Origin: Candidatus Merdivicinus excrementipullorum
Lineage (GTDB): Bacteria > Bacillota > Clostridia > Oscillospirales > Ruminococcaceae
Assembly (NCBI GenBank): GCA_018716725.1
Contig: DVJP01000039.1
Location: forward strand, 42,945-106,944
Reading direction: 5' to 3'
Length of the DNA: 64,000 bases
Below the pieces are notes generated by a model. It was given only the letters and a program-made list of their open reading frames with translations, made no database searches and had not been told where the DNA came from. A program made the translations under genes and the position numbers. Positions 8,471 to 43,822 of the stretch are shown one piece after another; within the stretch, counting starts at the first letter, position 1; every line of letters begins with the position of its first letter.

Positions 8471-8706
8471 GCGGGGAATTGCGGCCCCTACATTCTTATC
8501 GGACGTTCCAGATATTTTGTAGGGGACGGGTTTCCCGTCCCGCCAGACTTTCCGAGATATTCCGCTTTTGGACGCGGGCCGGGAGACCCGGCCCCTACAT
8601 TTCTATCAAACATTTCAGGTAATTTGTAGGGGCGCGCAATGCGCGCCCGCGGTTCTTGTACCTGTTTCCCCAAAAATGCGGGCCGATGTGGGCATCGGCC
8701 CCTACA
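8471..8706. repeat. Cluster of TGTAGGGG/CCCCTACA stem-variable hairpin repeats: two full 82-bp units plus a partial
   Basis: Units 8518-8599 and 8625-8706 begin TGTAGGGG and end CCCCTACA; inner hairpins GACGGG-TTT-CCCGTC, CCGGG-AGA-CCCGG, CGCGC-AAT-GCGCG, CCGATG-TGG-GCATCGG-like. Confidence 0.85.
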
Positions 8707-14158: not shown

Positions 14159-14195
14159 ATGAAAAGCGAAACGCTCCATAGTAAAATATACAAAA

Positions 14196-14522
14196 CCTTT
14201 TGTGTTGCTGACGCAAATGAGCCGTAGAGAAAAATTGAAAGATTCAAAAATTTGATTTTGCTTTGCAAAATCAGAATCGTGTCGTCAAGCGAACTTGACG
14301 ACGGTCATCCGCGGGCGGCTTTGCGAGCCGCCTATTATTTTGATAGTTCGCGCCCGAGGCGCGAAAAGTAAGATTTCGTTTTCTGCGGAAAACGATGGGG
14401 GCTTTGCCCCTCAACCCCACCACCTTTTGAAAAAGGTGGACGAAAACTTTTCTTTTTTCCCTTTTAGAAAAATATTTTTCTATACGAAATCCCCCCTGTT
14501 TTCCAAAACAGAGGGGATTTTT
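14196..14522. repeat. Intergenic train of consecutive unrelated hairpins
   Basis: At least eight successive inverted repeats, e.g. GTCGTCAAGCGAACTTGACGAC 14281-14302, TTCGCGCC-CGA-GGCGCGAA 14347-14365, CCACCTTTT-GA-AAAAGGTGG 14420-14439, AGAAAAATATTTTTCT 14466-14481. Confidence 0.8.
14487..14521 (-). terminator. Terminator hairpin, probably bidirectional
   Basis: AAATCCCCCCTGTTTT-CC-AAAACAGAGGGGATTT. Confidence 0.65.
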
Positions 14523-16160: not shown

Positions 16161-16241
16161 TGTAGGGGACGGGTTTCCCGTCCCGCGGTTTTTTCCGGGA
16201 CGCTCGATTTCTAATGCGGGCCGGGCGACCCGGCCCCTACA
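16161..16241. repeat. TGTAGGGG/CCCCTACA stem-variable hairpin repeat, single 81-bp unit
   Basis: TGTAGGGGACGGGTTTCCCGTCCCGC ... GCGGGCCGGGCGACCCGGCCCCTACA. Confidence 0.85.
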
Positions 16242-32394: not shown

Positions 32395-32672
32395 TCAAAC
32401 AGCACAGAGGCGAACACTGTCCGCCTCTATCCATTGGCTATATAGGTTCGCCCCTACAATACCGACGAACCGTTCGTATGGCAGGGGCCGGGTCCCCCGG
32501 CCCGCGTTTTTCGGAAATGCTCCAATCTTTTATGCGGGTCGGACAACCCGGCCCCACAATACATGTAGATATCGTTTCGGGGAACCTGTGCCGAAAACGG
32601 CGGTTCATCCCGCCGTTCACGAGTCCAACGCGGGGTACAACGACCGCGGCGGATTGGCCGCCCGGCCTCCGG
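32395..32672. repeat. Degenerate TGTAGGGG-type unit and second-class hairpins inside the ABC operon
   Basis: GGCAGGGGCCGGGTCCCCCGGCCCGCG...GCGGGTCGGACAACCCGGCCCCACA 32480-32558; GCGGCGGATTGGCCGC and GGCCTCCGGG palindromes downstream. Confidence 0.7.
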
Positions 32673-34766: not shown

Positions 34767-34966
34767 TGTAGGGGACGGGTTTCCCGTCCCGCCGTTTTTT
34801 TGTAAAACCCATTGGAAACAGAATTGTAAGGGACGATGCCTGCATCGTCCCGGGATTTTTCCGAAATCCATCAAAAAAGGATGGGCGGATATGGGCATCC
34901 GCCCCTACAAATTTTCCAGAATCCTTTCCATGAAATTGTAGGGACGCCCACAAGGGGCGCCCCTAC
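34767..34966. repeat. TGTAGGGG-type stem-variable hairpin repeats
   Basis: Half unit at 34767, full unit TGTAAGGGACGATGCCTGCATCGTCCC...GGGCGGATATGGGCATCCGCCCCTACA 34825-34909, single hairpin TTGTAGGGACGCCCACAAGGGGCGCCCCTAC near 34936. Confidence 0.85.
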
Positions 34967-34991
34967 GGGTTTTACATATTCCGGTATCCCG

Positions 34992-39350: not shown

Positions 39351-42025
39351 GTATCAACAAGGGCCGGATGGCCCGGGCTGTTGGGACCGGGCTTCTCTCC
39401 CCGCTGCTGACCGGCGGAGTGTTGCTGCTGGCCTACGCCCTTTTCGGCTTATATCCTTTTGGGGAACAGAGTATCGCCTGGTGCGACATGAACCAGCAGG
39501 TGATCCCTTTGATGGCGGAATTCCGCTCCGTCCTGTTGGGGAACGGCAGCATGTTTCTAAGCGGCGGCGCAGGCGGCGTCAATTTCTGGGGAATCTTCTT
39601 TTTCTTCCTGGCCAGCCCCTTTTCCCTGCTTTCGGTGTTCTGCCCCCTGTCCGGGCTTCCCTGGCTCATGAACTGGATGGTGCTGTGGAAAATGATGGTC
39701 TGCGCCGGGACAGCCTCTTTGTTTTTCCGCCGGGTATCCGGACAGCAAGAAAAAGTTCTGCCGGCCCTGCTGGGGCTGGCTTACGCTTTTTCCGGCTACG
39801 CCATGTTTTATTACCAGAACATCGTCTGGCTGGATATGATGGCCCTGTTCCCCTTGCTCCTTCTTTCCCTGTTGTCCCTGGAAAAAAGCCGGAAAATCCT
39901 GCCCTTTATCCTGGCGTTTTCCGGGATGCTGGCAGTCAATTACTACTTAAGCTACATGGCGGTGATTTTCCTGCTGCTGGGGTACGGCCTTTACCAGTTT
40001 TTCTGCGGCTCCCAGCAGCGAAAGGGAGACCGGATTTTGCTTTTGGGCTGCGGGGCTGTATTGTCCCTGCTGATGACGGCGGTGATCTGGCTCCCCTCTC
40101 TGCTGGAGGTCCTCACTTCCGCCCGGGGAGAAGGGCTGTTCCAGAGCCTGTCGGCGGGTTCCTTAAGCGCGGAGATTTTTACTACCCTGCCCGTAATTAT
40201 GACCTCCGCCCTGCCTTTTGCGGCTTTGCTGTTTCTTCGGAAAAAAGAGCTGAAAACCGGGGTGTTTACCGCCGCGGCCTGGATGTGCCTGCTGTTTTTC
40301 ATCGCCATGACGGTGCGGCCCATCAACAAAATGTGGCACACCGGCAGCTACCAGGGGTTCCCGGTGCGGTACGGGTACATGGCGGCATTGCTTTTGCTGT
40401 TTCTGGCCTGGCGGATCCTCCGTTCCGCAGAGCCTGATAGATTCCCCCGGCGTTCGGCAAAGCTTCCTGCCGCCGTGACGCTGATTGCCGCCGCGGGGCT
40501 TGTCGCCTTCCAACTGTTCTTGCTGGCCAACTGTTCCGAAACTCTGTCGGCCTACACCAGCACCCTCTGGGGGGACCGGGATTCCTTCCTTCTTCTGCTC
40601 ATGGCACTGGCCGTCGGGGCGGCGGCTTACACCGTCTGGTTCTGGGCATATAAAGGCGGGATGCTTACCCGGCGGCTTTCCCTCTGCCTGCTGGCCCTGC
40701 TCATTGGCGGCGAGTGCATTTTTAACAGCGGCGTCTACATGGGCGCTGTGGATACCAGCCACGAAACCTACCAAAACGCCGTCCAGCTGGCAGGCAAAAT
40801 CCCGGAGGAGGGCTTTTACCGGGTCAAGACCCAGCGGAAATATTTCGACGTGAACCTCTTTTCCGCCATGGGCTACGAAAGTCTGTCCCATTACACCTCC
40901 CTGACCCCGGAAACCACCCTGGTTTCCCAGCGGCGGCTGGGGTATTCCGGCTATTGGATGGAAGTGAATTCCAACGGCGGCACCGCCTTTGCCGACGCTC
41001 TTTTGGGAAACCGCTACGAAGTAGTTCCCCGGAGCGAACTGGGGGCGGAGGAGCTTTCCTCGGCGGACACGGTGTACTGCGGCCCGGTTTTTGCCATCAA
41101 GCGCCTGACCTACCGGCTGCCGGACGCCGTTGTCACAGATGCGGAGCCGGGCTTTTTGGAGGACCTGCCCGCCGGTTCCCGGGCGGAAATCCAGGGGGCC
41201 GTGGCGGAAAGCCTGTTCCCGGACAGCCAGGGGCTTTTCACCATTTTCCAGCCGGACAGCCTGGAGGGTGTGACCCTTTCCGACGGCAGCTATTATCTGG
41301 AGGGCGCGTCCTCCGGTTTCCTCACCTGGAACCTGCGGCTGGACCGGGACATGATCCTTTACTTTGACTGCGCTTCCCCGCCCTCCAACGCTTTAAACGA
41401 GCAGGTAAACAAATCCTGCAAGGTTTCCGTCAACGGGCGGGTGATCCGGGACCAGTACCCCACCCAGTCGGACAACGGCATCCTGAATTTAGGGGAATTT
41501 GAAGCCGGGGATATAGTCCGGGTGACGGTGGAGCTAAGCAAGGACATCCGGCCGGAATCCTTTGAGGTGTTCGGGGTGGATACCGGCCTTTTGGAAACCC
41601 TCTGCCAAAACGCCAATGGCGGGGAAATCCAGGGGGACGGCGGCCGCCGGACCATTGTCTGCACAGCGGAAGAGGGCCAAAGCCTTTTTGTCCCCTTTTC
41701 CTATGACACAGGCTGGAAAGCCGTGGTCAACGGGAAGGAGGTCCCCATTTCCCGTGCCGCCGGCAATTACCTTTCCCTGCCTTTGGAAGCGGGGGAAAAC
41801 ATTGTGGAACTTTCCTACACCCCGCCCGGATTTACCGCCGGGCTGTGGATTTCCATAGGCGGGCTGGTTTTATTCTTCCTCTTTTTCCGCTTTGGAAAGA
41901 AATGGATTTCGGCCCGTATGCCCTTGAAACAGGGGGCGGCGCTGCTGTTTACCGCCGCAGCCATTGGGGTGGCTTTTATGGTATATTTCTTCCCGCTGAT
42001 TGTGTATATGTTTGGGAATATATAG
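39347..42025 (+). CDS. YfhO family polytopic membrane protein
   Basis: Multiple TMs, AYALFGLYPFGEQSIAWCDMNQQVIPL, FSYDTGWKAVVNGKEVPI; ATG overlaps upstream stop. Confidence 0.92.
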   Translation: MSINKGRMARAVGTGLLSPLLTGGVLLLAYALFGLYPFGEQSIAWCDMNQQVIPLMAEFRSVLLGNGSMFLSGGAGGVNFWGIFFFFLASPFSLLSVFCPLSGLPWLMNWMVLWKMMVCAGTASLFFRRVSGQQEKVLPALLGLAYAFSGYAMFYYQNIVWLDMMALFPLLLLSLLSLEKSRKILPFILAFSGMLAVNYYLSYMAVIFLLLGYGLYQFFCGSQQRKGDRILLLGCGAVLSLLMTAVIWLPSLLEVLTSARGEGLFQSLSAGSLSAEIFTTLPVIMTSALPFAALLFLRKKELKTGVFTAAAWMCLLFFIAMTVRPINKMWHTGSYQGFPVRYGYMAALLLLFLAWRILRSAEPDRFPRRSAKLPAAVTLIAAAGLVAFQLFLLANCSETLSAYTSTLWGDRDSFLLLLMALAVGAAAYTVWFWAYKGGMLTRRLSLCLLALLIGGECIFNSGVYMGAVDTSHETYQNAVQLAGKIPEEGFYRVKTQRKYFDVNLFSAMGYESLSHYTSLTPETTLVSQRRLGYSGYWMEVNSNGGTAFADALLGNRYEVVPRSELGAEELSSADTVYCGPVFAIKRLTYRLPDAVVTDAEPGFLEDLPAGSRAEIQGAVAESLFPDSQGLFTIFQPDSLEGVTLSDGSYYLEGASSGFLTWNLRLDRDMILYFDCASPPSNALNEQVNKSCKVSVNGRVIRDQYPTQSDNGILNLGEFEAGDIVRVTVELSKDIRPESFEVFGVDTGLLETLCQNANGGEIQGDGGRRTIVCTAEEGQSLFVPFSYDTGWKAVVNGKEVPISRAAGNYLSLPLEAGENIVELSYTPPGFTAGLWISIGGLVLFFLFFRFGKKWISARMPLKQGAALLFTAAAIGVAFMVYFFPLIVYMFGNI

Positions 42026-42032
42026 CGAAAAT

Positions 42033-42064
42033 GGCCGTGGGTCATCAATTGATGACCCACGGCC
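42033..42064. repeat. 32-bp perfect palindrome
   Basis: GGCCGTGGGTCATCAATTGATGACCCACGGCC. Confidence 0.95.
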
Positions 42065-42096
42065 CCTGCAATTTATTCAGAATATTTTGATGGAAA

Positions 42097-42158
42097 AGTA
42101 GGGGCGGATGCCCACATCCGCCCGATTTTTGAAACGTTTTTAGGCATCGTCCCCTACA
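42097..42158. repeat. Partly deleted TGTAGGGG-type repeat unit
   Basis: AGTAGGGGCGGATGCCCACATCCGCCCG...TTTTAGGCATCGTCCCCTACA; left arm of second hairpin missing. Confidence 0.75.
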
Positions 42159-43716: not shown

Positions 43717-43822
43717 AGCAGCGGGATGCGGGCCTTGCACCGCAAGCCGGAACCCGGCTTTTCGTCCGCCCGGCAACTCCCCGTCCGAGCGACACTTAAC
43801 GCGCAAAACCCTACTCTGCTTT
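43717..43822 (-). promoter_or_regulatory. THF (tetrahydrofolate) riboswitch
   Basis: Minus strand AGAGTAGGGTTTTGCGCGTTAAGTGTCG...TTGCGGTGCAAGGCCCGCATCCCGCTGCT matches GAGUAG...GCGUUAAGUG type core; upstream of folT. Confidence 0.85.

Follow-up and report, generated by a model that had tools for sequence, protein, structure and literature searches.

Two adjacent repeats, at positions 8518-8599 and 8625-8706 of a 64,000-nucleotide stretch of the genome of Candidatus Merdivicinus excrementipullorum (the window), raise the question of what kind of element keeps its ends while its hairpin stems change. Both are present exactly as a sequence-only reading had described them, as 82-bp units with fixed ends, and of the three identities proposed there (MITE-like element, REP-like binding site for a protein, RNA element), the REP-like one is supported by the GTAG foot, the hairpin, the head-to-head dimers, the high copy number, the presence of RAYT genes and the co-occurrence of the two across relatives. 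The repeats are very probably GTAG-tagged REPs in head-to-head dimers (BIME/REPIN), which most likely serve a RAYT (TnpA-REP) as non-autonomous substrates. The units and parts of units in the window are as follows.

8485..8492, minus strand: REP foot (CCCCTACA) without a hairpin; in the alignment to sister species G181, the hairpin GGCCGATGTGGGCATCGGCC stands there
8518..8599, plus strand: REP head-to-head dimer 1, 82 bp, exact ends
8519..8541, plus strand: left REP hairpin of dimer 1, stem type ACGGG-TTT-CCCGT, a type found 17 times in 430 kb
8576..8598, minus strand: right REP hairpin of dimer 1, stem type CCGGG-TCT-CCCGG
8600..8624, no strand: linker separating dimers 1 and 2 (tail-to-tail gaps elsewhere are mostly 24-29 bp)
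8625..8706, plus strand: REP head-to-head dimer 2, 82 bp, exact ends
8626..8648, plus strand: left REP hairpin of dimer 2, stem type CGCGC-AAT-GCGCG
8680..8705, minus strand: right REP hairpin of dimer 2, 22-nt class CCGATGCCCACATCGG
16161..16241, plus strand: REP head-to-head dimer 3, 81 bp, ACGGG and CCGGG types, exact ends
32480..32559, plus strand: decayed REP dimer with ends GCAGGGG...CCCCACA
34767..34967, no strand: compound REP cluster with at least four GTAG/GTAA-tagged hairpins
42097..42158, plus strand: REP dimer with a truncated right hairpin

Each exact-ended unit in the window consists of two hairpins facing each other over a spacer of ~30 bp, and the hairpins follow one layout: TGTAG and GGG, then five stem bases that vary, a loop of 3 nt (or the longer 22-nt form), the complementary five bases and CCC. 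The number of such units expected in the window by chance is zero (100 shuffles). Amongst the four more distant units that had been called similar, the one at 16161 retains exact ends, while the others proved to be decayed (32480), compound (34767) or truncated in the right hairpin (42097). A long inverted repeat at 42020-42070, GGCCGTGGGTCATCAATTGATGACCCACGGCCCCTGCA, adjoins the truncated unit, and a TCATC...GATGA hairpin similar to it, possibly a longer REP variant, lies within some units of G181.

Pattern counts cover the whole genome and inventory figures cover ~430 kb of it. A whole-genome pattern search recovered 64 exact-ended units, compared with none for the reversed pattern, and within the 430 kb a hairpin is carried by 144 of the 224 GTAGGG tags, compared with 9 of 368 in the reversed control. 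By size, 90 of the 144 hairpins fall in a 19-nt class and 44 in a 22-nt class. Neighbouring hairpins are most commonly oriented head-to-head (HH, 50 pairs; tail-to-tail (TT), 19; HT, 18), and 46 of the 50 HH pairs span 65-92 bp, mostly 77-83 bp; unit length is hence not fixed at 82 bp. Three near-identical units stand in tandem at C32:93745-94043. Predicted ORFs of at least 100 aa contain 39% of the hairpins, though such ORFs make up 87% of the DNA, and the hairpins outside ORFs are seldom found between divergent genes (4, compared with 39 between unidirectional and 23 between convergent ones), in agreement with an earlier survey of REPs (PMC3733652).

The pairing of the stems was assessed on elements picked by their fixed ends alone, blind to pairing, with reassigned 3' arms as the control. 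In the 19-nt class (38 distinct), 178 of the 190 inner cells pair (0.937, versus a reassigned mean of 0.597 and maximum of 0.716) and all five inner pairs are formed in 29 of the 38 (reassigned mean, 4.7; maximum, 11), while in the 22-nt class the inner stems pair in 88%, compared with 67% when the 3' arms are reassigned. The claim that the stems vary yet remain paired was thus upheld, at 94% of inner cells versus 60% reassigned in the 19-nt class, whereas the accompanying claim that structure rather than sequence is maintained applies to the stems and fails for the foot GTAGGGG/CCC, which is kept as sequence. Stem variation is partly discrete, with types that recur in a limited set. Seventeen hairpin sequences occur at least twice among the 144 hairpins in 430 kb, and the set includes ACGGG, CGGGG, CCGGG, CGCGC, CGAAC and an xxGATGCCCACATCxx group with outer pairs AC, CC, CG or GC. 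The two arms of a dimer have the same inner stem with different outer two pairs in 20 of 43 dimers of this genome, compared with 6.3 expected. Identical arms occur in none of these 43 (1.9 expected, not significant) and in none of the dimers pooled from six relatives (4.7 expected); a general rule that dimer arms are never identical was dropped, as a wider sample that takes in other families holds identical-arm dimers in G245, G343, G429 and G445.

A GTAG with a palindrome directly after it, in head-to-head dimers and many intergenic copies, is the definition of GTAG REPs and BIMEs (PMC3733652, PMC8266576). The repeats have GTAG directly at the base of a stem (5-13 bp, with a loop of 2-20 nt) and many dispersed copies, mostly outside genes, in a genome with a tyrosine transposase (RAYT, two ORFs with HUH and Y motifs), and their units combine two closely spaced, inversely oriented REPs, as in a BIME or REPIN. 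They resemble the GTAG REP families of Di Nocera 2013 (PMC3733652) in the GTAG foot, the 8-9-bp stem and small loop, the stem sub-families with complementary changes, the prevalence of head-to-head dimers and the intergenic location with occasional intragenic copies, and differ from them in occurring in Clostridia and in having many stem types in one genome. The same survey lists Proteobacteria, Cyanobacteria, Chloroflexi and the PVC group, with Firmicutes absent from the text (PMC3733652). As in E. coli BIMEs (REP y/z mosaics) and Pseudomonas REPINs, there are two inverse REPs per unit and units are often in tandem, and mostly different REP types are paired, as in the E. coli BIME, where y is combined with z1 or z2 (PMC8266576). 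Unlike those systems, the stems have no conserved bulge, and mobility of the unit is here a candidate property. The perfect 8-bp stems and 3-nt loops of the 19-nt class are closer to the REP-Sm of S. maltophilia, which has an 8-bp stem and a 3-nt loop (PMC8266576).

The search for a RAYT-like gene that had been proposed as a check on the element yielded two intact RAYT (TnpA-REP)-like Y1 transposase ORFs in the genome, G000:C40 and C82, both outside the window. RAYT/TnpA-REP proteins are Y1 HUH nucleases of the IS200/IS605 superfamily. The first of the two matches the NCBIfam model REP_Tyr_transpos with an E-value of 3.6e-16 and 59 bits, where the model cut-off is 80, and the sole solved-structure match of a 13-member RAYT profile (A1) is E. 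coli TnpA-REP 4ER8 (E 3e-11), covering the region of the HUH, WQ, R and Y..NP. In the RAYT ORFs the HUH motif reads NH[ILV]H, a Q is preceded by W or F, and YI..N is present, in most cases with P; the named relatives of the resident RAYT belong mainly to Oscillospiraceae, Ruminococcaceae and unclassified Clostridia. In-frame REPs within the transposase gene have been reported as both unique to RAYT subclass 2.4 and predominant in it (RAYT group 4; motifs NH[IFV]H, WQ and YIxNNP; Quentin 2018, PMC6006769). The RAYTs here come close to that subclass in the HUH, (W/F)Q and YI..NP motifs and share with it the three G-C pairs at the REP foot and the in-frame insertions. They likely belong to it, with a D at the position of E100 in E. 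coli TnpA-REP, a change reported for subclasses 2.5 and 2.7 (PMC6006769).

In the first resident RAYT, GTAGGGGCCGATGCCCACATCGGCCC stands in frame and is read as VGADAHIGP; its inverse follows further on, read as GPMWASAPT, and a third copy of the hairpin lies just downstream of the gene. Both right hairpins at the paired locus have counterparts in the resident genes: that at 8680..8705 is identical to the REPs within the first resident RAYT, and the CCGGG 5-bp stem of 8576..8598 is the stem of the in-gene REPs in the second. ACGGG, the commonest stem in this genome, is found in neither; the only RAYT copy seen to carry it, in G002, is interrupted by a stop. Seven of the 11 distinct recurrent stems of this genome are found inside some sampled RAYT gene, compared with 0.74 expected from shuffled letters.

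Of 87 RAYT ORFs from relatives, 68 have a left hairpin before the HUH motif, 74 a right hairpin after it and 63 both, as an inverted REP pair that is translated in frame and occupies two near-constant positions; the hairpins of this set were themselves picked out by their pairing. The insertions are paired, one on each side of HUH, while those in PMC6006769 generally lie between HUH and Y. Counted from the RK motif, the left GTAG falls on codon 33-35, in frame 0, in 52 of 61 non-redundant genes; the right one most often ends 21-22 residues past the HUH motif. The hairpin is retained while the amino acids that it encodes vary (VGANCVRP, VGEGLCALP, VGDGVPDVP). Amongst RAYT genes that are related by descent, both in-gene REPs have the same 5-bp stem in 39 of 61 genes (2.7 by permutation; maximum, 10) and the same length class in all 61 (31 expected), and REPs within 1.5 kb of a RAYT gene share its stem in 33 of 63 cases (2.4 expected), where flanking and in-gene copies may share a recent duplication. 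Between genes, the sharing of stems declines quickly with protein identity, from ~39% of pairs at 60-70% identity to 3% at 50-60% and 1% at 40-50%. Because the stem types of both hairpins change jointly and in step with the protein, the in-gene pair could be a maintained, functional part of the RAYT gene, possibly a self-encoded specificity label, a suggestion that is tentative and rather doubtful. Its role may be that of autoregulatory binding sites or of a source copy for the spread of the REP type.

The evidence linking REPs and RAYT is comparative throughout, and many of the genomes are draft MAGs. In a family-level sample of 199 genomes, units occur in 7 of the 15 with a RAYT and 4 of the 184 without (Fisher P = 8e-7), and in an order-level sample of 295 genomes, in 18 of 67 with and 5 of 228 without (Fisher P = 5e-9). 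G094, which is a third species of the genus, lacks both REP units and RAYT. Since units also occur without a detectable RAYT, in G445 (52 units), G343, G346, G381 and G417, their retention does not depend on RAYT, although these genomes may have lost one or have one that escaped detection. The arms in the units listed for G445 are mostly of the same stem, and that genome has no RAYT match at E 1e-10; it has either lost its RAYT or holds a divergent one. RAYT genes with matched in-frame REP pairs were also seen on contigs labelled Synergistaceae, Spirochaetes and Burkholderiales (L099, L128 and L109), which suggests spread of RAYT-REP across phyla, with binning errors possible in these MAGs.

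Dimer 1 is conserved in sister species G181 at ~97% identity and with the same stem types. The units at C56:48197 and C18:23733 are likewise shared in place and type, so many insertions predate the species split. Other orthologous units have changed: the C56:55041 dimer has a different left hairpin in G181, the left arm of the 16161 dimer is damaged there, and local deletions within units separate the two species. The look for empty sites that had been proposed as a check gave no clean one in the ~140 kb aligned to G181, where units are conserved, damaged or truncated, or rearranged; G094 is too diverged for the comparison.

By analogy with E. coli TnpA-REP, the REP units are probably mobilised by the resident RAYT acting as a single-strand DNA transposase, which would recognise the foot and hairpin on single-stranded DNA, cut and join nearby, and so copy or move REP units into intergenic DNA. 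TnpA-REP is reported to cut single-stranded REPs, with the relative weight of the GTAG and the palindrome in recognition differing among groups (PMC8266576). Each RAYT lineage has its own REP type, usually as an in-frame inverted pair in the gene with further copies flanking it, and the stem type shifts together with the lineage; several lineages visiting one genome could then leave mixed stem types and mixed dimers such as those in the window. We infer both the cutting and mobilising of REPs by RAYT and the origin of the extra stem types as traces of other RAYT lineages.

Three other origins can be weighed against mobilisation by RAYT. The fixed outer ends and fairly constant length would suit a classical MITE, with the ~82-bp unit as a defective DNA transposon moved by a DDE transposase in trans and TGTAGGGG...CCCCTACA as terminal inverted repeats with a target-site duplication. 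The occurrence of single GTAG hairpins and of TT and HT neighbours, however, indicates that the element is the hairpin and not the 82-bp unit; the ends are hairpin feet, not transposase terminal repeats, and are found inside RAYT genes as well, the units co-occur with RAYT, and no repeated flanking bases are visible by eye at 16 isolated dimers. A MITE in the strict sense is therefore extremely improbable, and the target-site duplications that had been suggested as a sign of insertion are not apparent at these dimers. Gene conversion and replication slippage at palindromes might also have spread the copies and their stem diversity, with RAYT an incidental passenger; the tandem units on C32 and the local deletions inside units between the sister species are what such recombination debris would produce, but the co-occurrence with RAYT in two taxonomic samples and the match in stems between RAYT genes and flanking REPs make it highly unlikely.

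Selection on RNA, with hairpins behind genes stabilising or terminating transcripts, would account for stems that remain paired and for units being far commoner where genes are co-directional or convergent than where they diverge. Against it, the repeat loci of the window have no Rfam match, the stems of the copies read are not followed by a T-run, and the wide stem diversity, the patchy, RAYT-tied occurrence and the copies in RAYT genes point to a DNA element, which leaves an RNA element as a very unlikely primary identity; secondary RNA effects of REP units are possible.

As GTAG REPs with RAYT partners, these repeats place REP/RAYT systems firmly in gut-type Clostridia, for which no earlier description was found in the literature consulted. 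GTAG REPs in Clostridia, the near-constant site pair around HUH and the within-gene stem agreement were likewise not found described in it, though the supplement of PMC6006769 may show part of this. The REP type belonging to each RAYT can be read directly from the transposase gene, and since every gene comes with a hairpin pair of its own, the co-evolution of RAYT and REP can be tested on dozens of proteins with their natural substrates. Should the in-gene hairpins prove functional, this would help to explain the commonness of REP insertions in this RAYT subclass.

The window also contains a hairpin-rich dispersed repeat of ~280 bp at 14173-14474, which is not a GTAG REP and has about ten more copies at 69-88% identity in the 430 kb and more than 30 matches in G181. 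The sole Rfam match in the window is a THF riboswitch (RF01831, 93.7 bits) at 43717-43820 on the minus strand.
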